NCBI GenBank assembly: GCA_946411735.1
Contig: CAMKFB010000018.1
Span: 1-32,993 of the forward strand
From: an uncultured Selenomonadales bacterium
Lineage (GTDB): Bacteria > Bacillota > Negativicutes > Selenomonadales > Selenomonadaceae
Length of the DNA: 32,993 nucleotides
Direction of reading: 5' to 3'
The position numbers and the translations under genes are program-made. How positions within the stretch are numbered: the first letter of the stretch is position 1; each line of letters opens with the position of its first letter. The notes beneath the pieces were generated by a model, which ran no database searches, had not been told where the DNA came from, and was given only the letters and a program-made list of their open reading frames with translations. Of the stretch, positions 9,831-21,980 are shown piece by piece.

Positions 9831-10796
9831 TCACTTGCCGAGATTTTTCATTATCGTCAACAGCGCCGGCAACAACAGCACCACGAATATCGACGGGAAT
9901 ATGAAAATGACCATCGGGAATAAAATTTTGATCGGCGCCTTCATCGCCTGCGTCTTGACGAATTGACGGTGCCGATCGCGCATGTTGTCCGCCTGCATCG
10001 TCAGAGTCTGCGACATGCTCGTGCCGAGCTTCTCCGCTTGGATCACCGACGTCGTGAACAGATACATCTCCTCAATGTCACAGCGCTTCGCCATTTGCGT
10101 CAGCGCGTACTGTTTCGTCATGCCGAATTTGATGTCGTCCTGCATGTGCTTGAACTCGTCCGAGAGTTGCCCCTTCATTCGAGCCGTGATCTTTGCGACC
10201 GCGCCGTCGAACGAAAGCCCCGCTTGCACGCTCACGCACAGCAGATCAAGAAATTCCGGCAGCTGCCGACGCATGGATTTTTGCCGCTTGCGAATCATGG
10301 AGTTGAGCACCGCAAACGGCAACAGCGCTCCGATCAGCGCGCCGCCCGCAACGATCAGCACTTGGTGACCGATGAAATAATCCGTTCGTTGCGCGACGAA
10401 TATGCCGCCCACCGCGCCCGCCGCGATCGACAGCGACCACGCGGCGGCAAGACTTTGCACGTTCCACACGCCCTGTTTGCCCGCGAGGAAAATTTTTCGC
10501 TCCAACATCTCGATGATCGCCGGCGGCGTCAATTGGTGCAGTCGATGTGCGATCGCAATCAGGATCGGTCGGATCACGCGCCGGTAGAACGAGTGGTGGA
10601 AGGATTTTGTTACGATGACCTTTGTTTCTGTCGCCTGCCGGCGTTTTTTTGCACGCTCCCGCTCCGCCTCCGCGCGGTCGATCATCAGCTTCATGCGCTT
10701 GCGCACTCGAGCCGCCGGAGTCTGTCGCATGTACAGCAAAAATCCGACGAACACCACCCATAAGATGCTGCCGAGCGCCGCAAAAAAAGTTATCAT
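9831..10796 (-). CDS. tadC: Tad pilus inner-membrane platform protein TadC
   Basis: This 321-residue protein has an N-terminal membrane segment, a cytoplasmic GspF-type domain (about 175-290, with QLPEFLDLLCVSVQAGLSFDGA and the EKLGTSMSQTL motif), two membrane segments near residues 105-150 and a C-terminal hydrophobic helix. TadB and TadC form the platform on which the TadA ATPase drives Flp pilus assembly. ATG 10796 overlaps the tadA stop (ATGA) and follows GGAG by nine bases, indicating translational coupling; an upstream TTG at 10811 is less likely because GGAG falls inside that frame. It is the last gene of the minus-strand tad cluster. Confidence 0.93.
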   Translation of the reverse strand: MITFFAALGSILWVVFVGFLLYMRQTPAARVRKRMKLMIDRAEAERERAKKRRQATETKVIVTKSFHHSFYRRVIRPILIAIAHRLHQLTPPAIIEMLERKIFLAGKQGVWNVQSLAAAWSLSIAAGAVGGIFVAQRTDYFIGHQVLIVAGGALIGALLPFAVLNSMIRKRQKSMRRQLPEFLDLLCVSVQAGLSFDGAVAKITARMKGQLSDEFKHMQDDIKFGMTKQYALTQMAKRCDIEEMYLFTTSVIQAEKLGTSMSQTLTMQADNMRDRHRQFVKTQAMKAPIKILFPMVIFIFPSIFVVLLLPALLTIMKNLGK

Positions 10797-12301
10797 GACG
10801 CTCTGCTCCAAAGCGAAGGCATCTCCACGCCGTTCATTCGGAACTTGTCGAGGAATTGCGGCTGCAGCCCCGACGCCTCGTAATGTCCGACGGATTTGCC
10901 GTTCTCGTCAATGTAATCCTGCACGTACTTGAATAAATCCTGCAGAATGATCGTGTCGCCCTCCATACCCTGCACTTCCGTGATGTGGGTAATCTTTCGA
11001 CTGCCGTCTCGGATGCGCGACTGTTGAATGATCAGATCGAGCGCCGACGACACTTGCGTCCGCACCGCGCGGACGGGAAGCTCCATGCCCGCCATCAGCA
11101 CCATCGTCTCAAGTCGACTGAGCACGTCGCGCGGCGTGTTTGCATGCGCGGTCGTCAGCGATCCGTCGTGACCGGTGTTCATCGCTTGTAACATGTCAAG
11201 CGCCTCACCCGCGCGCACCTCGCCGACGATGATCCGATCGGGGCGCATGCGGAGCGCGTTCTTGACCAAATCTCTTATCGTGATCGCGCCTTTGCCCTCG
11301 AGATTTGCCGGTCGAGCCTCGAGCGTGACCACGTGCCGCTGCTGCAATTTGAGCTCCGCCGCGTCCTCGATCGTAACGATCCGATCCGTCGACGGGATGA
11401 ACGATGATAAGACGTTGAGCGTCGTCGTCTTGCCGGAGCCCGTGCCGCCGCTTACCAGGATATTCAACCGCGCGCGGACGCACGCCTCGAGAAACACCGC
11501 CATATCGGGACTGAGCGTGCCGAACTTGACCAGATCGTTGACGCTGAGCGCCTTCTTGGAGAATTTTCGGATCGTCACGGCGGGACCGACCAGACTCAAC
11601 GGCGGGATGATGATGTTGACGCGGGAGCCGTCGGCAAGACGCGCATCGACCAGCGGCGAAGACTCGTCCACGCGCCGTCCGAGCGGCGTCAATATCCGCT
11701 CGATGATGCTCATCAGATGTGCGTCATCGTGGAAATGCGTGTCCGTCAGCATCAGCTTGCCCTTCTGCTCGATGAAAATATCCTTCGGACCGTTGATCAT
11801 TATCTCCGTAATCTGATCGTCCTTCAACAACGGCTCGAGCGGTCCAAGCCCCAACAGTTCATCGCAAATGTCGTCGATCAGCTGAAAACGCTCGCCGCGC
11901 GTCATTGATATCGTCGCATTTTCGTTGAGCTCGCGCTCGCTGTAGGCGGCGATGATGTTTTTGATCTGATCTCGAGCGGGTTCGCCCTGCGCGATCCAAG
12001 CCTGCTCCTCCGGCGTCATCTCGTCGACGATCCGCCGGTGCACCGACATCTTCAGCTCCTGCAAGCGATTGACGGGCGCGGCGATCGAAGAATGCCTGCC
12101 CGCGAACGCCGACGCCTCCTGCGGATGATTGAGCTCGGTCGTCGCCTGCATGCGGCTGTTGTATGTCGGCATGGGCGTCGTTGGCGCCTCGGGCTTCCTC
12201 AATTTGTCGATCGCCGCCTTGAGCTGATTGCCGTCGCTCGCCGTCTGATCGGCTTTCTTTTTGCCGCCCAAGCGCTCCAACAACGAACGGGTTCGTGCCA
12301 T
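10793..12301 (-). CDS. tadA: Tad pilus assembly ATPase TadA (CpaF family)
   Basis: This 502-residue secretion ATPase has a variable N-terminal region (about 1-110), a helical N-terminal domain and a RecA-like core. Walker A SGGTGSGKTT is at 282-291, and the Walker B/Asp-box region follows (RIIVGEVRAGEALDML near 355), then GHDGSLTTAHANTP. It powers Flp pilus extension and retraction as a hexamer at the inner membrane. ATG 12301 lies about ten bases after GGAGGG; a TTG at 12310 is too close to that site. It is preceded by tadE and overlaps tadC by four bases. Confidence 0.96.
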   Translation of the reverse strand: MARTRSLLERLGGKKKADQTASDGNQLKAAIDKLRKPEAPTTPMPTYNSRMQATTELNHPQEASAFAGRHSSIAAPVNRLQELKMSVHRRIVDEMTPEEQAWIAQGEPARDQIKNIIAAYSERELNENATISMTRGERFQLIDDICDELLGLGPLEPLLKDDQITEIMINGPKDIFIEQKGKLMLTDTHFHDDAHLMSIIERILTPLGRRVDESSPLVDARLADGSRVNIIIPPLSLVGPAVTIRKFSKKALSVNDLVKFGTLSPDMAVFLEACVRARLNILVSGGTGSGKTTTLNVLSSFIPSTDRIVTIEDAAELKLQQRHVVTLEARPANLEGKGAITIRDLVKNALRMRPDRIIVGEVRAGEALDMLQAMNTGHDGSLTTAHANTPRDVLSRLETMVLMAGMELPVRAVRTQVSSALDLIIQQSRIRDGSRKITHITEVQGMEGDTIILQDLFKYVQDYIDENGKSVGHYEASGLQPQFLDKFRMNGVEMPSLWSRAS

Positions 12302-12319
12302 GGCTTTCAATCCCTCCGA

Positions 12320-12763
12320 TCATTTGTTTTCAATTTTCATCTTGTATTCGATTGTCTTCAGGTGCTTCGGCAGAATGTGCAGATTCTCCAAGGCAGGCGG
12401 CAGGTCGGCGCGCTCGAGACTGATTGTGATGTGCACGTCGAAGGCATCGGTCTGCTTGGTCGTAGATTTGCCGTTCTTATCGAGAAACTCGGCGCTCCAT
12501 TTCGCGCTCAAGAGATCCGTAATGGTGGTGGCGTATCGCTTGAGTTGGTTCGGATCAGATTTGTTGATATTATCGACGATAGTTTTCTTGTCGGGGAACG
12601 TCATTTGCAGAGAAATGTCGCGGGCGGCGTCGCGGGCGGCGTTGCTGTACTGCGTATAGTCGAGGAATGCGATCCCGACGTAGATGATGCCTATGAGCAT
12701 GAATACCAACATCGGCGCTATGAACGCGAACTCCACTATCGATTGTCCCTTGCTCCGAGTCAT
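12320..12763 (-). CDS. tadE: TadE-like minor pseudopilin
   Basis: This 147-residue protein begins with a type IVb pseudopilin signature. G6 is followed by QSIVEF, with Glu at the +5 position after the predicted prepilin cleavage, and a hydrophobic helix (about 10-32) continues with DYTQYSNAARDAARD. TadE-family proteins are processed by the TadV peptidase and needed for Flp pilus formation. ATG 12763 is preferred to GTG 12775 because GGCGGTG then has normal spacing. It lies between flp and tadA, behind a hairpin that separates it from flp. Confidence 0.9.
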   Translation of the reverse strand: MTRSKGQSIVEFAFIAPMLVFMLIGIIYVGIAFLDYTQYSNAARDAARDISLQMTFPDKKTIVDNINKSDPNQLKRYATTITDLLSAKWSAEFLDKNGKSTTKQTDAFDVHITISLERADLPPALENLHILPKHLKTIEYKMKIENK

Positions 12764-12784
12764 GTTTCGTTTCACCGCCTTGCC

Positions 12785-13151: not shown

Positions 13152-14114
13152 TTAGGTCTCAATATCAACGATGCGCTTTATGATAAAGAATCCGATCACC
13201 TCGAGCCCCAGCGACACTCCGATCGCCGTTTGCCCCATCGGATCGTCGAATATCTGAACAAAATTATCGTGGTTGATCACGAACATCACCGCGCCGAGCA
13301 TGAACGGCATCAACAACAGCACGACCGCCGACAACCTTCCTTGCGCGGTCAGCGCCATGATCTCGCGCCGCATTCTGATGCGCTCCATGATCGTGTAACT
13401 GATGTTGTCGAGAACTTGAGCAAGATTGCCGCCGACCTCGCGCTGTATCAGCACCGCCGTCACCACCAACTCGAAATCGGAGCTGCCGATGCGTTTGTTG
13501 GCGGTCTCGAGCGCCTCCTCGAGCGGCACGCCCATATAGACATCGTGGTTCATTCTCGCAAACTCTTCGCCGATCGGCGGCTCCATTTCGTTGGCGATCA
13601 CTTCGATCGTCTGCTGAAAACTGTAGCCCGCGCGGAGCGCATTCGAGATGGTGATCAGGCAATCGCCAAGCTGCTCGGTGAACGCCTCCAGCCGTCGACC
13701 GATCAGAAAGATTACGACGAGCCAGATGATAAACGGCGTCGCCGCCGCCGCGCCCAGCGCAATCTTTTCGCTGAAGGTGAGCAGCCACGCGATCAGCCCG
13801 ACCGCCAAAGCCGCCATCAAATTCATCACGACGTACTCGCCGCCGAATATAGGCAGCCCCGCTTGGTTGAGTTTGTACTCGATCGATTGAGCGACATTCA
13901 TCTCGACCAGCGGCTTGGCGATCCTCTGCACAAGTTTGTAAATGCGCCGGAAGGGCGATTCCTTGACGCTGTCCTTTTTGACGGGTTGGGCGGCGCCGTG
14001 GCGTCGCATCCGTTTGAACAGGTCGATGCGCTTGGTTACCTTGAAATACCTCAGAATTGCCGCCAACGATATCGAACACGCAAGCGCGATCAGCGTCGAG
14101 TAAATCGCTATCAC
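13152..14114 (-). CDS. tadB: Tad pilus inner-membrane platform protein TadB
   Basis: This 320-residue GspF-domain protein has an N-terminal membrane helix, a pair of central hydrophobic segments (about 98-140), the cytoplasmic domain with ITISNALRAGYSFQQTIEVI and REVGGNLAQVLDNIS, and C-terminal helices. It pairs with TadC as the assembly platform. The start is GTG 14114, overlapping the stop of the upstream tadZ gene as GTGA. No clear Shine-Dalgarno is present, so translational coupling is likely. The paired tadB and tadC genes are separated by flp, tadE and tadA, unlike the common adjacent order. Confidence 0.93.
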   Translation of the reverse strand: MIAIYSTLIALACSISLAAILRYFKVTKRIDLFKRMRRHGAAQPVKKDSVKESPFRRIYKLVQRIAKPLVEMNVAQSIEYKLNQAGLPIFGGEYVVMNLMAALAVGLIAWLLTFSEKIALGAAAATPFIIWLVVIFLIGRRLEAFTEQLGDCLITISNALRAGYSFQQTIEVIANEMEPPIGEEFARMNHDVYMGVPLEEALETANKRIGSSDFELVVTAVLIQREVGGNLAQVLDNISYTIMERIRMRREIMALTAQGRLSAVVLLLMPFMLGAVMFVINHDNFVQIFDDPMGQTAIGVSLGLEVIGFFIIKRIVDIET

Positions 14115-15217
14115 AGCTCGCGACGGATCACCCTGTCCGCCAACTCGTCAATGGTTTTCATCATCAAAGTATCGCTCGGCAAGCCCGTCAGGATTTGCCC
14201 GCTGTTGGCGATCGATACCAGATTATACTCGTTTGGAAAGATTGCTGCAAGCGGATAACCGATCTGCACCTCGAGTTGCATCTTTCGCTCGGGTGTGCAG
14301 GGGTTGACGCGCGTGAAGATCGGATAACATTTGTTGCGCTGAACCTTGCGCATGTCGAAGAGCGCCATACTCCGCCTGACGTGCTCGATCTCGAGCCCGG
14401 TGTTGATCATCGCCACGATAAAGTTGGTGTCGGAAAAATTGGTGGAGGCGACAGACAGCGGATTGAAGCCCGCCGGCAAGTCGATGAAAACATATTTGAA
14501 AAGATGCCCCGTCATCGCTATCAGCCCCAACAAGCCCTCGGCGTCGACAAGCTCCGCATATTCGGGTCGATCGGGACTGCTCAACAGTCGGACATTCTTG
14601 GTGATCTCGTGGAAATACGGCGCCAACTTGACCGGCACCAGCGTCCGAAGGTCGTGGACAGCATCGACGACGGTGTGTTGCGGTTCGATGTCGAAGAAGA
14701 TCGGAAGGTCGCCGAATTGCAAATCGGCGTCGATGAGCGCAACCGCCTCGCCGGACTTTCGAGCGATCGACAGCGCCAACAGCGCCGCCAAAGTCGTCCG
14801 CCCCGCCCGCCCCTTCGGGCTGAAGAACGAGATCGTATACGGCGCGCCGACTTTGCCGCGTTGCTTGTAAACATTGATCGCCTCTATGATCTCCGAATCG
14901 CGAAAGGGTTTGAGTATGCAGCCCAAAATGTTGTGACCGATCGCGCGGCGCGTGATCTCGGGATTCCATTCGGATATCAGCCCCAAGATCGTCGCGTTCG
15001 GATAAAGCTCGACGAACGCCGGCAGCCTGTCAAGAAACTCGGGCGTGTCGATGTCGATCAGAAACAGCGACGGATTGTGCATGCTGCTCCGTCCGAGCGC
15101 CGCGTTGACTTCATTGAAAGTCGCCATCACCTCAAAATCCGGAGATTGCTTGAGCGTGGCGTTGAGCTCTTCGAGCATCCGCCGATCTCGTTCCACCAAT
15201 ATTACTCGGTACGCCAA
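14111..15217 (-). CDS. tadZ: TadZ/CpaE-type protein: receiver domain plus MinD-like ATPase
   Basis: This 368-residue protein fuses a response-regulator-like receiver domain (about 1-120) to a MinD/ParA-type ATPase domain (about 125-368). The receiver keeps acidic residues E9 and D11, a candidate phosphoacceptor D55 (LIDIDTPE) and a Lys in ILKPF. In the ATPase, the deviant Walker A reads KGRAGRT: the signature Lys is kept but the P-loop Lys is Arg. The DADLQFGD and FIDLPAG motifs are present. TadZ proteins position the Tad machine at the pole. The start is TTG, eight bases after GGGTG. It directly follows a second ATPase lacking the complementary Lys. Confidence 0.88.
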   Translation of the reverse strand: MAYRVILVERDRRMLEELNATLKQSPDFEVMATFNEVNAALGRSSMHNPSLFLIDIDTPEFLDRLPAFVELYPNATILGLISEWNPEITRRAIGHNILGCILKPFRDSEIIEAINVYKQRGKVGAPYTISFFSPKGRAGRTTLAALLALSIARKSGEAVALIDADLQFGDLPIFFDIEPQHTVVDAVHDLRTLVPVKLAPYFHEITKNVRLLSSPDRPEYAELVDAEGLLGLIAMTGHLFKYVFIDLPAGFNPLSVASTNFSDTNFIVAMINTGLEIEHVRRSMALFDMRKVQRNKCYPIFTRVNPCTPERKMQLEVQIGYPLAAIFPNEYNLVSIANSGQILTGLPSDTLMMKTIDELADRVIRREL

Positions 15218-15234
15218 CTATATTTCACCCGCCT

Positions 15235-16077
15235 CTAATTGAACATATTCAGGAATTTCGAGAAAAGCCCATGATTGGTCTCGGGCGCCGGCGGCTCTGC
15301 GGCAAGGTGACTGATCCTGCCGGTGTACTCGCCCGACAACTCTTTGAAACTCTTCGTCAGAGATGACGTCGGAGCCGCGAACATCAACGGACAGCCCTCG
15401 AGAATCGACTTGTTGACGGACGGGAAATCGTTCGGCAAACGATGAAAGAACGTCTCGCCCAGCAATCGCTCGACATCATGCCCGTCGATCAGCTTTTGAG
15501 AATTGGCGCGGTTCTCGACCAGGCGGATTTTACTCTCCTCGTATTCGAATCGGATCAACGTGTCGTAACCGATTTTAAAATTCTTCACCGAAGGAAGGAA
15601 ATCGATCACGCCCAGGAAATTTATAATCGTGCTCATATCGAGCATCGCCACGTTCAATGTGCTGAACACCGCGCTCAGGTCGAGCACGATGAAATCAAAG
15701 AAATCCAGCTGCTGTATAAGACTTTCGACCACATCAACTTCGATGCGGTAAGCGTCATAAATCATGCGCGGCGGCGCGAGCACGGAGAATTTAATCTCCC
15801 CGTTGTCGCCGACGTAATGATAATCCGTCAGATAGTTATTGACGTCGAAATTCGCCGCGTCGTTTTTGAAATCGGCGTTGGCGTCGGCAATCGTGTACTT
15901 CGGCTCCAGCTTGAGATACTTGACGATGTCGCCGAACTGCAAATCCAAATCCACAAGACAAACCGCGTAGCCCTCGTTAGTGAGCCCGGCCGCCAAGTTG
16001 ATTGCCGTAATTGTTTTGCCTATACCCGAGCTGGTGCTGAAGATGCTGATGATAATGCTGCTTCGCCCTTCTGCCAT
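15235..16077 (-). CDS. Second TadZ/CpaE-like MinD-family ATPase
   Basis: This 280-residue MinD/ParA-like protein has no receiver domain. Its Walker A reads SSGIGKT near residue 16: the P-loop Lys and Thr are intact but the upstream signature Lys of the deviant Walker A is Ser. The DLDLQFGD motif matches the neighbouring TadZ, while switch II (LDLSAVF) is degenerate. The remainder includes a long helical C-terminal part. ATG 16077 follows a GGGGGG site by seven bases. It lies between the secretin and tadZ genes in the same operon, 17 bp from the latter, and probably acts with it in localising the Tad machine. Confidence 0.82.
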   Translation of the reverse strand: MAEGRSSIIISIFSTSSGIGKTITAINLAAGLTNEGYAVCLVDLDLQFGDIVKYLKLEPKYTIADANADFKNDAANFDVNNYLTDYHYVGDNGEIKFSVLAPPRMIYDAYRIEVDVVESLIQQLDFFDFIVLDLSAVFSTLNVAMLDMSTIINFLGVIDFLPSVKNFKIGYDTLIRFEYEESKIRLVENRANSQKLIDGHDVERLLGETFFHRLPNDFPSVNKSILEGCPLMFAAPTSSLTKSFKELSGEYTGRISHLAAEPPAPETNHGLFSKFLNMFN

Positions 16078-16125: not shown

Positions 16126-17613
16126 TCATTGACCCTCCTCGGGAGGATCGTTAAGATTAACGTTGTTGAGATCGGTTTGCTCGAGCCTTCCTTGGTTATA
16201 ATAATCCTTCATCGAATCCGACATGCGCGTCTGCGACGACTGCTCATCATCGATAAGATAAGGCGTCACCAAAATTATCAGTTCGCGCTTGTCGCGCCTC
16301 TTTGAGTTATACTTAAAAAACTCGCCGATAATCGGGATATCTCCGAGCAAAGGAATTTTCGAGACGGCTTTGCTCTCGGAAGAATCCATCAGCCCGCCGA
16401 CGATCATCGTCGAGCCGGATTGCAGGTTTATCACCGCATCCGCGCGGCGCGTGGAGATAATCGGCTGACCGTTGACGGCTTGACCCGTCATATTGCTGAC
16501 CTCGGTGTGGACGGTCGAGACGATGCGGTTTTGCCCGTCGACAATCGGCTTGAACTGCAGGATTATGCCGTAGTTCTCGAATTGCACGGTGGTGCCGTTG
16601 ATGTTGGAGATCGAGTAGGGAATCCTGCCGCCGATTTGGATCGTCGCCTGTTCGCCGCTGAGCGTCGTCAAGCTCGGGCGGGACAAAATCCGCGCCTTGC
16701 CGTCGCTGACGAGCGCATGGATCGTCGCGTTGATCGGACCGAAGCGATGTTCCATCCAACGCAACGGGCGCTTTATAAAGTTGGCAACGTCGGAGCCCGT
16801 CTCGAGCGTGTAAGTCGCCCAACGGTTATTTTCATCGTCCCAATAGCGATAAACCTCGGTCTCGACGGTGCGATCGTTGTTTTCGCCGATAGAAAACACA
16901 CCACCTTCGCCGTTCGCGCCGTATTGAATCCCGAGATCCTTGGCTTTATCGGAGTTAATCTCGACCACTTGAGCCTCGAGACGAATTTTTATCGGATTGA
17001 GCATCTGCAGAAGATCAATCACGTTGCCGTCGTCCTCGACCCGATCCATTTGCGTCAGAATCGAAGTCGAGTGATCATCTTCGGAGCTCTGCGTGCTCAA
17101 CGCCGGATTGACATTGCTGCCGAAACTCAAGCTGGTATTGCTGCCGCTGCCCGTGTACAGGCGCGCGATCTGAATCGCGTAATTCCTTTCGTATTGATTT
17201 TTAACCGTGCCCGTCAACAATACTCTTCCGTCGACCTTTTTGACGTGCACGTCCGGCAAGCCGATTGCCGCTTCGATCGCCGCCGCTTGACCGATCTCAT
17301 CCTTCACGACGTTGATCAGATAACCGTGCTTGACGCCGTCGACCGTCCAAACGAATAACGTCGCCGCGCCTTCTTTTTCAAAGCTCGTCACAACAAATTC
17401 GTTCATCGACGGTCCAAGTTGTTTTACTTTCGCGATTTTGGAACTGCTCATGAATACGCGCTCGATCGCGCTGTCCAACTCGAAATACCGCGAGCTGTTA
17501 TACGTCATATCTATTAGTTCCAAGTCTTCATCGATGTCCGCCGCGCGCACCGTCGGCAGCACAGCGAACATAATTGCAATCACCATCAAAAATATTCTCA
17601 AGCGATCCATCAT
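16126..17613 (-). CDS. rcpA: Tad pilus outer-membrane secretin RcpA/CpaC
   Basis: This 495-residue protein has a Sec signal peptide (cleavage expected near VRA/AD, residue 25), the pilus-assembly secretin N-domain (about 28-105), a BON-like domain (about 108-150, VHVKKVDGRVLLTGTV) and a C-terminal secretin domain (about 285-465). The latter includes RPSLTTLSGEQATIQIGGRI and VGGLMDSSESKAVSKIPLLG, ending in LIILVTPYL. It forms the outer-membrane channel for the Flp pilus, direct evidence of a diderm cell. ATG 17613 follows AAGGA by eight bases; neighbouring GTG/ATG codons are alternatives. It sits between cpaB and the ATPases, 38 bp after cpaB. Confidence 0.95.
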   Translation of the reverse strand: MMDRLRIFLMVIAIMFAVLPTVRAADIDEDLELIDMTYNSSRYFELDSAIERVFMSSSKIAKVKQLGPSMNEFVVTSFEKEGAATLFVWTVDGVKHGYLINVVKDEIGQAAAIEAAIGLPDVHVKKVDGRVLLTGTVKNQYERNYAIQIARLYTGSGSNTSLSFGSNVNPALSTQSSEDDHSTSILTQMDRVEDDGNVIDLLQMLNPIKIRLEAQVVEINSDKAKDLGIQYGANGEGGVFSIGENNDRTVETEVYRYWDDENNRWATYTLETGSDVANFIKRPLRWMEHRFGPINATIHALVSDGKARILSRPSLTTLSGEQATIQIGGRIPYSISNINGTTVQFENYGIILQFKPIVDGQNRIVSTVHTEVSNMTGQAVNGQPIISTRRADAVINLQSGSTMIVGGLMDSSESKAVSKIPLLGDIPIIGEFFKYNSKRRDKRELIILVTPYLIDDEQSSQTRMSDSMKDYYNQGRLEQTDLNNVNLNDPPEEGQ

Positions 17614-17651
17614 CACACACGTCCTTCTAAACGTGATGTCGTCGATAATTG

Positions 17652-18653
17652 CTACTCGTCGCCGTATATGATCTCAAATTTCCTCGGTTCGGGCTTGGAC
17701 GCCGGTTTTTGTTCGGTTGCCGGTCGCTCCTTCGGTTCGGTTGTTCGATCGAGCGTCGGAGCGGGTGCCGAGCCGCTTGACGGAGCGGGAGCCGGCGTCG
17801 AAGGTGCCGGCGTCGATGTCGGCGCTTTTTGCTCGGTCGTCTTCGGTTTCGGCGCCTTATAACCGCGGAAGATCACTTCGCCGCTGTCGACGTAGCCATC
17901 AAGCGGCTTGAGCGGTCGCAACATCAGATATATCTCGCCCAGTTTCGACGCCGATATCAACTGCAAAACTTCGTCGGGCTTGAGCGCCAACGTCGCGATC
18001 GACGGATTGCTGATCGCTTGCGTCGAGGGATCGACCGTTTGATCTTCGCTCGGAGCGCCAACACCCATGTCGCCGTTGATGCTCAACAGCAACACGTTCT
18101 GCAACAGTATCGAAGTCGTCGCGAAGTTTTCATCCTTCTCCGAGAGGATTACGTCCACCCGATCGCCCGGCTTGGCGAATCCCGCCACGCCCGTTATGTC
18201 GTTGACCCTCACCGATACCGCTCGACAATCCTTCGGAATCATCCCGATGAATCCGCGCGGCTCCGACTCATCGAAAACCCGTTGCGGCGTCATCACGTCG
18301 CCCGCAAGGATTTCCGTTTTCGCCGGTCGATTGAGGATCGTTTCGACGTCCGTCACCGCGTTCGCCGGCACAAGATTTTCGGGCATCTCCCGCGTCTCGA
18401 ACATTTCCCGTTTGAGGAGAGTTTGCGCGCTTATGTTTGTCTTTGCTACCACCACCGTTTTCATCGATATTTGAGGAGCCGCGTCGGGCATCGCTCGCGT
18501 CGGCTCGATGACTTCTTTTTCGACGCCCATCAGCGCCGCGTACATCAACCCGAACATGCACAGCCCCGATACGCCCGCGATCACCAGCAACTGCCGCGGG
18601 CTCAAATCACCGAGCCGGCTGAGCACATTCCTGACCCATTGCAAAGCCCTCAA
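17652..18653 (-). CDS. cpaB: Flp pilus assembly protein CpaB/RcpC
   Basis: This 333-residue protein has a short cytoplasmic start, one membrane helix (about 22-44), a SAF domain (about 66-130, with VVVAKTNISAQTLLKREMFE and VMTPQRVFDE) and the RcpC domain (about 130-245, GVAGFAKPGDRVDVIL). A Pro/Lys/Thr-rich low-complexity tail (about 262-325) follows. CpaB stabilises the secretin and may contact peptidoglycan via SAF. The start is TTG, eight bases after GAGGTG. It is the first gene of the tad operon, with a near-consensus promoter, and lies just downstream of the diguanylate cyclase. The long Pro-rich tail is the one unusual element. Confidence 0.93.
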   Translation of the reverse strand: MRALQWVRNVLSRLGDLSPRQLLVIAGVSGLCMFGLMYAALMGVEKEVIEPTRAMPDAAPQISMKTVVVAKTNISAQTLLKREMFETREMPENLVPANAVTDVETILNRPAKTEILAGDVMTPQRVFDESEPRGFIGMIPKDCRAVSVRVNDITGVAGFAKPGDRVDVILSEKDENFATTSILLQNVLLLSINGDMGVGAPSEDQTVDPSTQAISNPSIATLALKPDEVLQLISASKLGEIYLMLRPLKPLDGYVDSGEVIFRGYKAPKPKTTEQKAPTSTPAPSTPAPAPSSGSAPAPTLDRTTEPKERPATEQKPASKPEPRKFEIIYGDE

Positions 18654-18751: not shown

Positions 18752-20344
18752 TCAACCGATCTGCTCCGCCGAATCGTAATAATATCCGTTGCGACCATGC
18801 GCCTTGACGAAGTACAGCGCCTCGTCGGCGCTCTTAAAGAGCGTGTCGTAATCCGTGCCGTGGCGCGGCGCGATGGCGATGCCGATGCTGGCAGTGACGC
18901 CGGTGTCGATTCCGTCGATGACGATTTTCGACGCCACGTCTTTGATCTGCTTCGCCTTGCGCGTGATGATCTCCATGCCCGGGAGGTTGTCGATGATCAC
19001 GACGAACTCATCCCCGCCGAAACGACCGATACAATCATTCGGTCGAAACTGTTTGCGCAACACCCTCGAGAACTCCAACAAGACTTTGTCGCCGAACTGG
19101 TGACCGTACGTGTCGTTGACCTCCTTGAAATGATCCAGATCGACGATGTAGAGCGCCAACAGCGAATCATTGATCTCCTGCTCGTTGAAATTCTTCAGCT
19201 TGGCGCGACAGGCGCGCTCCATCGTCGTCTTGTTATAGAGCCGCGTTAACTTATCCAGCTCCGACTCGATCTGATAGGCGTCGCGATCCGAGCGGATTTT
19301 GTTGAACGCCTCCGCCATTTGCCCGAGCTCGTCGTCCGAAGTCACTTCGATCCGCTCGAATGTGCCGGTGCCCTTGACGATCTTATCGGCGGCGTCTTTG
19401 ATCTGCACGATCGGGCGCGTCACGCGGATCGAGAGGAAATACGCCATCACGCTCACCAAAATCAGCATCATCAGTCCGATCAGAATCTCGACTGCCACGC
19501 GCGCGTAAACTTGCTCCAAAATGAAGTGATACGGTCGCACCGTTACGATCGTCCAGCCCGTCAGCGAATTTTTCGAATAGCAAACAAGCGCGTCCTCGTC
19601 GTTGATTGGCGCGCGGATCATTCCGAGGCTGCCGATCATACGCGTCGCCAAAAATTTGTACGGTGCCTCGCTCGAGTGATTTTCTATTGCATCCGTGAGC
19701 CCTTCGGAGTAGGCGATCGTTTTTCCTTCGCGGTCGAGGATCATCACGGAAGTCTGCTCGTCGCCCTGAGCCTCGACAAAATACTGCAGTGTCTCGAGAT
19801 TGAGATTGCGCTGAACCATGCCGATCGGGCGTCGGCGCTGATCGCGGACGGGAGTTTCGAGCACGACGATCACTCTGCCCGTCGACATGCTGATCATCGT
19901 GTCGGAGACGAAATCGATCCCGAACATCGCCTCTTTAAAGTGTCGCCGTTGACTGACGTTGACGAGCGTGGAATTATCGGTGCGGATCAACTGTTGCGCG
20001 TCGGAGCCGGTCAGCACCATCAAATTCATGTCGTGAAACACCGCATTGGTGTCGTAAAGGACATGGCGCGCGCCTTCGAGGTTGTGCGGATTGGGGTCGA
20101 CCACGCAATCGATGATAAGCGGATTGCGGGCCATCGCTCGCAACACATAAAAATTTTTGTCTATCAGTTCGCTGACGTGCTCGGAGATGACGGCATTGCG
20201 CAACCTGCCGTCGTCGGCGGCAATCTCCTCGAGCTCGGTCACCATGTTGACGGCGCTCACGATGACGGCAACAATCAGCGGCAACGAGCCGATCACGATC
20301 AGCAGCATGAACATTTTTTGGCGGATGCTCTTGGTAACTCCCAA
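18752..20344 (-). CDS. Membrane diguanylate cyclase (dCache-HAMP-GGDEF)
   Basis: This 530-residue sensor has an N-terminal membrane helix (about 11-33), a periplasmic Cache-type sensing region (about 35-280), a second membrane helix (about 282-305), a HAMP linker (about 305-357) and a GGDEF domain (about 365-525). The active site GGDEF is intact near residue 443, preceded by five residues and an RPND inhibitory I-site, so it should make c-di-GMP and be product-inhibited. No EAL domain is present. The start is TTG, seven bases after AGAGGT, behind a strong promoter. It lies immediately upstream of the tad operon on the same strand. The ligand cannot be read from sequence. Confidence 0.93.
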   Translation of the reverse strand: MGVTKSIRQKMFMLLIVIGSLPLIVAVIVSAVNMVTELEEIAADDGRLRNAVISEHVSELIDKNFYVLRAMARNPLIIDCVVDPNPHNLEGARHVLYDTNAVFHDMNLMVLTGSDAQQLIRTDNSTLVNVSQRRHFKEAMFGIDFVSDTMISMSTGRVIVVLETPVRDQRRRPIGMVQRNLNLETLQYFVEAQGDEQTSVMILDREGKTIAYSEGLTDAIENHSSEAPYKFLATRMIGSLGMIRAPINDEDALVCYSKNSLTGWTIVTVRPYHFILEQVYARVAVEILIGLMMLILVSVMAYFLSIRVTRPIVQIKDAADKIVKGTGTFERIEVTSDDELGQMAEAFNKIRSDRDAYQIESELDKLTRLYNKTTMERACRAKLKNFNEQEINDSLLALYIVDLDHFKEVNDTYGHQFGDKVLLEFSRVLRKQFRPNDCIGRFGGDEFVVIIDNLPGMEIITRKAKQIKDVASKIVIDGIDTGVTASIGIAIAPRHGTDYDTLFKSADEALYFVKAHGRNGYYYDSAEQIG

Positions 20345-20453: not shown

Positions 20454-21980
20454 TTATTTTTTGGATTGATGGCGGGCGAAGGTCGAAGCGGCGTTGAGAT
20501 TTTTGAAGGGCGTCTTGTCGTCGAGCGCGATATCGCCGAGCGCCAATTCCTTCACCGCAATGATCTCGTCAAGCTGAGCGGATTCTCCATCGACGAGCGT
20601 CTGAATTTGCATGTCGCCGACGCTCTTGAATGTGACGGTGCCGCTGCCGATCGCGAATATCACATCCGAGCCCGAGCTGAGACTGTCGCTGATGGCGCCC
20701 TCGACCACCCTGAACGTGTCGTTCGAGCTGTAGCCGTAGATGACATCGTTGCCGTCGCCGGCGGCGTAATCGTAAACATTTTTCGCGCCGTCGCGATTGA
20801 TAATCGTGTCGTCGCCGAGCCCCGCGCGGACGGTTACTTCTTCGCTCGTGTTGAGGATGATCGAGTCGTCGCCCGCGCCGCCGACAATCGTCGTCCAAAA
20901 ACTGTCGTTGTTATAGACCGTATCGTTGCCGTCGCCCGCGCGGATCGTCTCGTAATCGCCCGAGTAATTGTTGAGGAAATCGTCGCCCGCGCCGAGATCG
21001 ATCGTGCCTTCGCGCCCGCCGCTGTTGCGAACGATGTCGTTACCGTCGCCCGCCTCGAGCACCACGCGATGCGCCTCGTAATTGGCAATCGTGTCGGCAT
21101 AATCGGTGCCGGTGAGCGTCCGCGCGCTGCTGTAGTTGACGATGTACTTGCCGGTGTCGGTGTCGACGAGCGCGCCCCGGGCATCGACGACGTTGACGCC
21201 GAGATCGGCGGCGCCCCGCAGATTGATCGTGGCGTTGTCGTCGACCACCACATAAAAGTCGTCGCCGTTGATGATCGAATTCGAGATCGAGCCGTCGGTG
21301 ATGCGGAGCGTGTCGCCCTCGTCGAAATTGTAGACCACATCATAGCCGTCGGCGGCGCCGAAACGAATGACTTCCTCGGAGGCGCCGGCGAAGACGGTAT
21401 CATTGCCCGCGCCGCCCTCGAGCGTGGCGCTCGCGCCGAAGTTGAAAATGTAATCGTCGTCCGTGCCCGCGTTGATGTTCGCGCCCGCACCAAGGTTGAC
21501 AACGGTGTCATTGCCTTCGCCCGTGCCGATTGTGACGTCGGCGCCGGTGTTCGTGATCGAGTCAAGCCCGTCGCCGACAATCGACTTGCGCTTTTTCGTA
21601 TTGTTGACGACGTTGCGCTCGGGATGCAGGACGAGCAGCTCGCCGTCGACCGTCAAAACTTGAATCGGAGCGCCGGCGGCGCCGCTGAGCGTGACCTTCG
21701 TCGAGCCGATTTTAAACGAGATATCGTCGCCGCTTTTGACGGATTTCGACAGCTTGCCCTTTGTGATTTGGAGCGTGTCGCTCGTGTCGAAGCCGTAGAT
21801 GATGTCCTTGCCGTCGCCGTTGCCAACCTGATAGACCTCGGCGCTGAGGGTCGAGCCGACGATGGTGTCCTTGCCCTTGCCGGCGTCAATAGTAACATTC
21901 GAGCCGGTGTTTTCAATCGAATCGGCTTTCGAGGTGCCGCTTATCAGCGTGTTGTCGACGGCGTTATAAATGTTTGCCAT
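20454..21980 (-). CDS. RTX-like calcium-binding repeat protein
   Basis: This 508-residue protein is built from hemolysin-type nonapeptides of the form GGxGxDxxx, for example EGGAGNDTV, LGAGDDFL, GGAGDDSI and AGLGDDTI, expected to form calcium-bound beta rolls. Three longer modules recur near residues 48-105, 208-260 and 415-470, each with a GD/DG...Y-x-F/Y-x-x-x-D-T-(L/F) core followed by a beta-rich stretch. There is no Sec signal peptide, which fits type I secretion, but no exporter genes are in the window. ATG 21980 follows GGAGAG. It is the last gene of a long operon, 20 bp after an anchored protein of unknown function. It could instead be a cell-surface or S-layer-associated protein. Confidence 0.8.
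   Translation of the reverse strand: MANIYNAVDNTLISGTSKADSIENTGSNVTIDAGKGKDTIVGSTLSAEVYQVGNGDGKDIIYGFDTSDTLQITKGKLSKSVKSGDDISFKIGSTKVTLSGAAGAPIQVLTVDGELLVLHPERNVVNNTKKRKSIVGDGLDSITNTGADVTIGTGEGNDTVVNLGAGANINAGTDDDYIFNFGASATLEGGAGNDTVFAGASEEVIRFGAADGYDVVYNFDEGDTLRITDGSISNSIINGDDFYVVVDDNATINLRGAADLGVNVVDARGALVDTDTGKYIVNYSSARTLTGTDYADTIANYEAHRVVLEAGDGNDIVRNSGGREGTIDLGAGDDFLNNYSGDYETIRAGDGNDTVYNNDSFWTTIVGGAGDDSIILNTSEEVTVRAGLGDDTIINRDGAKNVYDYAAGDGNDVIYGYSSNDTFRVVEGAISDSLSSGSDVIFAIGSGTVTFKSVGDMQIQTLVDGESAQLDEIIAVKELALGDIALDDKTPFKNLNAASTFARHQSKK

Follow-up and report, generated by a model that had tools for sequence, protein, structure and literature searches.

Two neighboring ATPase genes, each of which has lost a different lysine of the Walker A motif, raise the question of whether their products work separately or share a single ATP site. 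This arrangement occurs in the DNA of an uncultured Selenomonadales bacterium (GCA_946411735.1, contig CAMKFB010000018.1, positions 1-32,993), a stretch of 32,993 nucleotides (nt) hereafter called the window. The host genome is that of a Quinella-like Selenomonadaceae, and both genes sit inside a tad pilus operon. The upstream gene (15235-16077) encodes a TadZ-type ATPase, here named Z, and the downstream gene (14111-15217) encodes a receiver-fused TadZ-type paralogue, here named R; like all window features described below, both lie on the minus strand. Z and R probably work as a mixed pair, and comparison of their sequences leads us to consider it reasonably likely that they form an obligate heterodimer with one composite ATP site.

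Z is a paralogue of the receiver-fused TadZ/CpaE proteins, and a TTG located 21 nt upstream could serve as its alternative start. R is a protein of 368 amino acids (aa) translated from a TTG codon 17 nt beyond the Z stop, and the gap between the two genes, which have the same orientation, contains a AGGCGGGTGA stretch. Translation of the minus strand bore out, codon by codon, the initial annotation of both motifs. The Walker A region of Z reads FSTSSGIGKTITA, and its SSGIGKT stretch (16012-16032) has Ser16 at the position of the signature lysine and retains the P-loop lysine, Lys21. The corresponding region of R reads FSPKGRAGRTTLA; its KGRAGRT stretch (14795-14815) retains the signature lysine, Lys135, and carries Arg140 at the P-loop position. 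Of the two lysines of the canonical KGGxGK[TS] motif, Z is without the first and the R of the window without the second, and together they have both. The ParA/MinD-type ATPase fold is present in Z and R, and their predicted single-chain folds match the MinD and Soj structures 3q9l and 2bek. Assignment of R to NCBIfam NF047398, a KGGVGR-motif variant ATPase family that, judging by its name, also has an arginine at the position of the P-loop lysine, was rejected (39.1 bits against a cut-off of 90).

Motif states were then read by alignment, the counts for Z and R being those of the non-identical homologues fetched. The signature lysine was present in 0/121 Z and in 122/122 R, and the pattern seen in the window is therefore neither chance nor a sequencing slip. 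The P-loop lysine was retained in all 121 Z, while R had Lys (51), Arg (65), Gln (4) or Ser (2) at this position, a loss in 71 of 122 proteins. Unpaired TadZ proteins had both lysines in 42/43 cases within the same class, the Negativicutes, and in 56/59 cases in other classes. Loss of the signature lysine with retention of the P-loop lysine was seen in the pairs, in the tandem locus L209 described below, and in a single unpaired TadZ of the class (L217), which has an arginine at the signature position. Furthermore, the residue two positions past the signature lysine, a glycine in unpaired TadZ proteins, is basic in R (Arg 62, Lys 44, His 13, n=121); this third residue of KGGxGKT is perhaps a second trans-acting charge. 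One unpaired TadZ forms the end of a 963-aa open frame (L049:1488-4376), possibly a fusion or the result of a missing stop.

Z and R were also found to travel together. Among the 37 genomes of a genus survey, 31 had a strong match to Z and 29 of these a strong match to R; the remaining two, G005 and G018, are truncated at contig ends. In a survey of 380 genomes of the class (Z match at E <=1e-60, R match at E <=1e-85, listings counted by hand), an R-type match was present in 144 of the 147 genomes with a Z-type match, and in the three remaining genomes (G018, G005 and G096) the place of the partner lay beyond a contig end or was cut by it. One genome (G205) had only a fragment of Z, at a contig end. 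Z preceded R on the same strand in 119/119 non-identical pairs at the fetched loci, with a gap of 60 nt or less in 109. These results uphold the view of Z and R as adjacent TadZ-type ATPases and extend their reciprocal lysine pattern and tight pairing to the whole class. In one genome, the pair lies outside any tad operon (L122:3199-5127), flanked on one side by a cytidylate kinase/acyltransferase stretch and on the other by genes for a Mur ligase and GAPDH; 0.7 kb downstream there is a prepilin-peptidase-like gene (L122:5823-6524). Z and R thus remain neighbors even in this setting. Locus L078, from the same record series, has a pair with CpaB and TadB.

Beyond the class, a survey of 398 genomes of the phylum gave, among the matches listed, hits at E <=1e-99 that all fall in the window's own family; the others listed were at 6.6e-54 or weaker, most of them in open frames of 390-540 aa, a length that could accommodate a receiver. 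One of the frames, a receiver-less TadZ-type frame of 247 aa outside the class (L299:3968-4708, G563), has both lysines (FSSKGGVGKS).

To place these losses in order, we used a tree of 132 ATPase domains from which the motif columns had been removed before building. R, including the early pairs, fell on one side of a branch with a support of 99 (starred), and Z with its early forms fell on another branch with a support of 86 (not starred), both nesting with unpaired TadZ genes. The P-loop state required four changes on the R side, one of them depending on the long-branched L209, and none on the Z side or the unpaired side. When a tree was built with care for 50 R proteins, the P-loop losses needed three changes, starred branches forced three, and a single clade for the 20 rows without the P-loop lysine was rejected by the approximately unbiased (AU) test (p-AU 1.2e-11). 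Together, these change counts and the AU rejection indicate that Z lost the trans-acting lysine once and early, and that R lost the P-loop lysine later and repeatedly. The two substitutions are thus not inherited as a unit: loss of the signature lysine is universal in Z, whereas the P-loop lysine of R disappeared later and in several lineages.

In genomes G043 and G124, the partner of R is an early Z form with its receiver still in place (L053 and L208). In genome G120, three TadZ genes follow one another in tandem, and the outer two group with Z and with R, respectively, in the tree. In the tandem at L209:2084-5730 (f24), the outer motifs read PLGRSGKT and PKRGVGQT and the middle one is canonical (AKGGVGKT), which may be an independent instance of reciprocal loss on either side of an unaltered gene.

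It could be argued that TadZ nucleotide sites are weakly constrained, so that both genes drift, nucleotide plays a structural role at best and the reciprocal pattern arose by accident in this lineage. Degenerate Walker A motifs are known in TadZ (PMC10482377, PMC13189830); moreover, the motif of 3ea0, the closest relative with a solved structure, is KGGDGGS, and 3/59 unpaired TadZ outside the class have an arginine at the P-loop position. Drift would, however, be expected to hit both lysines in both genes, whereas the tree shows 0 losses of the P-loop lysine in Z and 0 losses of the signature lysine in R, and 98/102 unpaired genes overall retain both. We therefore regard drift as improbable.

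The losses are complementary beyond the lysines and run in the same direction. Asn189 of Z (VENRA, 15511-15513), which we presume to contact the adenine, is an Asn in 120/121 Z; at the same position R has Thr302 (FTRV, 14312-14314), and only 3/122 R have an Asn. Z ends in a C-terminal tail (15238-15321, ending in NHGLFSKFLNMFN) that is a candidate MinD-like amphipathic membrane anchor and, judging by its sequence, may bind the membrane; the median tail length is 27 aa in Z, 22 aa in unpaired TadZ and 4 aa in R. Conversely, the receiver is absent from Z, except in the early forms in L053, L208 and L209. R retains an N-terminal receiver-like domain (14858-15217), which looks degenerate (Pfam Response_reg, 28.3 bits, just below the cut-off of 30.2); CheY chains match the R profile.

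The initial annotation had given this receiver a role in signal input, which now appears doubtful. An explanation of the pair turning on the receiver of R could draw on its receiver fold, on the pocket lysine (117/122) and on the phospho-acceptor Asp (86/122). Nevertheless, this Asp is replaced by Asn in 32/122 R, the Thr/Ser switch position is usually occupied by Met, Gly or Leu, with Ser in 22/122, and the acid pair has changed to Glu plus a variable residue, whereas the receivers of unpaired TadZ have the canonical pocket set almost throughout. We consider such an explanation very improbable.

A Z-Z dimer would be without the trans lysine, and an R-R dimer of the window's protein without the P-loop lysine and the adenine Asn; hence, only a Z-R dimer would give one complete site. 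We propose that an ancestral TadZ homodimer gave rise, by duplication, to Z and R as its two halves. Z would have retained nucleotide binding together with the tail, while giving up the trans-acting lysine and the receiver. R would have kept the trans-acting lysine and the now-degenerate receiver, lost the tail, and lost nucleotide binding stepwise, through loss of the adenine-site Asn in nearly all members and of the P-loop lysine in more than half. The working unit would be a Z-R sandwich heterodimer with one live site, in which ATP sits in Z and the signature lysine of R reaches across, while the opposite site, formed by the R pocket facing the lysine-less loop of Z, would be dead. Through Z, the dimer would be anchored at the membrane, and the receiver of R would dock to neighboring TadZ units or to the CpaF motor. 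With a Z-R dimer in the place of the CpaE homodimer, a single receiver and a single tail would be present per unit.

Several observations weigh against this proposal. R retains the P-loop lysine in 51/122 cases, and the Asp residues of its DxD and Walker B stretches are kept, which is more than a pure lysine donor would need. No Z was seen alone except at contig ends, but the counter-case named in the initial annotation, homologues with the same substitution and no partner, is partly observed for R: the three unpaired genes with the K-to-R change all belong to one family code from other classes (L250, L253, L255), so that the arginine alone need not abolish function. These three genes read KGGVGRT and retain the adenine Asn and the C-terminal tail. 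TadZ of E. rectale is reported to hydrolyze ATP without either lysine, another lysine substituting, and Lys-to-Ala changes at both positions are tolerated in a mycobacterial MinD-like ATPase (PMC10482377); at odds with the former report, TadZ proteins with Walker A changes are summarized elsewhere as having little or no ATPase activity with their localization kept (PMC13189830). Furthermore, McdA of S. elongatus has strong ATPase activity alone despite missing its signature lysine (PMC6328274). Because TadZ and its relatives tolerate odd Walker A motifs in this way, we hold our confidence in the heterodimer only somewhat above even.

The same observations open the way to a second explanation, in which Z is an ATP-binding homodimer that uses another lysine, as reported for E. 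rectale TadZ and as McdA must do in some way, with R serving as a pseudo-ATPase scaffold whose contact with Z lies outside the nucleotide sandwich. Lys165 of Z, a Lys in 120/121 Z and also carried by unpaired TadZ proteins, could stand in for the signature lysine. The P-loop lysine and adenine-site Asn kept in Z, the lone activity of McdA and that reported for TadZ without both lysines all agree with this explanation, which we judge to be rather unlikely.

The surroundings of the pair are those of a tad operon. Upstream are genes for the secretin CpaC/RcpA (16126-17616, Pfam Secretin, E 3e-44) and CpaB/RcpC (17652-18653, RcpC, E 2e-22). A TadB-type platform protein gene (13152-14114, T2SSF, E 8e-23) shares 4 nt with the end of the R gene and is followed by genes for a TadE-like pseudopilin (12320-12775, TadE, E 4e-14), the motor ATPase TadA/CpaF (10793-12310, T2SSE, E 7e-69) and a TadC-type platform protein (9831-10811, T2SSF, E 2e-15). 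Immediately upstream of the operon lies a Cache-HAMP-GGDEF diguanylate cyclase gene (18752-20344), a possible link between cyclic di-GMP and pilus control, and a 508-aa RTX-like repeat protein is encoded nearby (20454-21980, HemolysinCabind, E 9.5e-9). The bacteria with this split pilus ATPase are rumen Selenomonas-like; no passage of the paper on the Quinella genome (PMC9585023) contains pilus, pili, Tad or type IV as words.

Additional copies were observed as well. In the host genome (G000), a further copy each of Z and R lies on contigs C85:140-952 and C50:1-981 (L039 and L040), in both cases at a contig end; the two are probably a single pair that the assembly has separated, and this second R still has the P-loop lysine (KGRSGKT). 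Another genome has a second Z and R as adjoining fragments with stops in the R part (G015:C61:19212-20393), a pair that seems to decay jointly. In one Selenomonadaceae genome, a TnpB-like transposon open reading frame (372 aa, identified by eye) lies between Z and R, both of which are still open frames (L111:4682-5800).

The use of ATP by TadZ/CpaE is poorly understood, in part because mutations in a homodimer hit both sites and both subunits. Here, the ATP pocket and the candidate membrane tail are on one chain and the trans lysine and the receiver on the other, a split that permits single-site, single-subunit tests of the trans lysine in hydrolysis, dimerization or pilus positioning. We judge it slightly more probable than not that a ParA/MinD-type ATPase has here evolved naturally into an obligate heterodimer that shares one composite ATP site. 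In Selenomonadaceae and other Negativicutes, the duties of an ancestral homodimer would then have been shared out between two neighboring paralogues, and independent lineages would have dismantled the second pocket repeatedly. Among open-licence PMC papers, no title or abstract beginning that we found describes such a TadZ pair, which is weak evidence of absence.

In fold, in a presumed descent from a receiver joined to a ParA/MinD ATPase, and in operon neighbors (secretin, CpaB, TadA and TadB), Z and R resemble TadZ/CpaE proteins such as E. rectale TadZ (3fkq) and Caulobacter CpaE. Unlike in these, the parts are divided, Z being without receiver and signature lysine, and R without the tail and with degraded nucleotide-site residues. 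The sandwich dimers of MinD and Soj are homodimers with two equal sites, unlike the proposed Z-R dimer. The iron-sulphur P-loop proteins Cfd1 and Nbp35/NUBP1 have deviant Walker A motifs and form mixed complexes, a hetero-tetrameric one being mentioned in one abstract; they differ from Z and R in not being pilus proteins, and we know of no reciprocal lysine loss in them. Caulobacter CpaE has been modeled as six homodimers around the CpaF hexamer, the receivers likely joining the dimers (PMC13170226), and the signature lysine is stated to act in trans in E. coli MinD (PMC10482377). McdA, the ParA-family protein that positions cyanobacterial carboxysomes, has a Ser in place of the signature lysine, as does Z, but it is active alone, and no adjacent paralogue with the missing lysine is described for it in the passages concerned (PMC6328274, PMC8262871). 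If our proposal is correct, the ParA/MinD superfamily would include a heterodimer in which one site is live and the other dead, as in asymmetric ATP-binding cassette (ABC) exporters; in TM287/288, one live composite site is combined with a degenerate one (PMC5216877), in an unrelated ATPase family and thus by analogy only.
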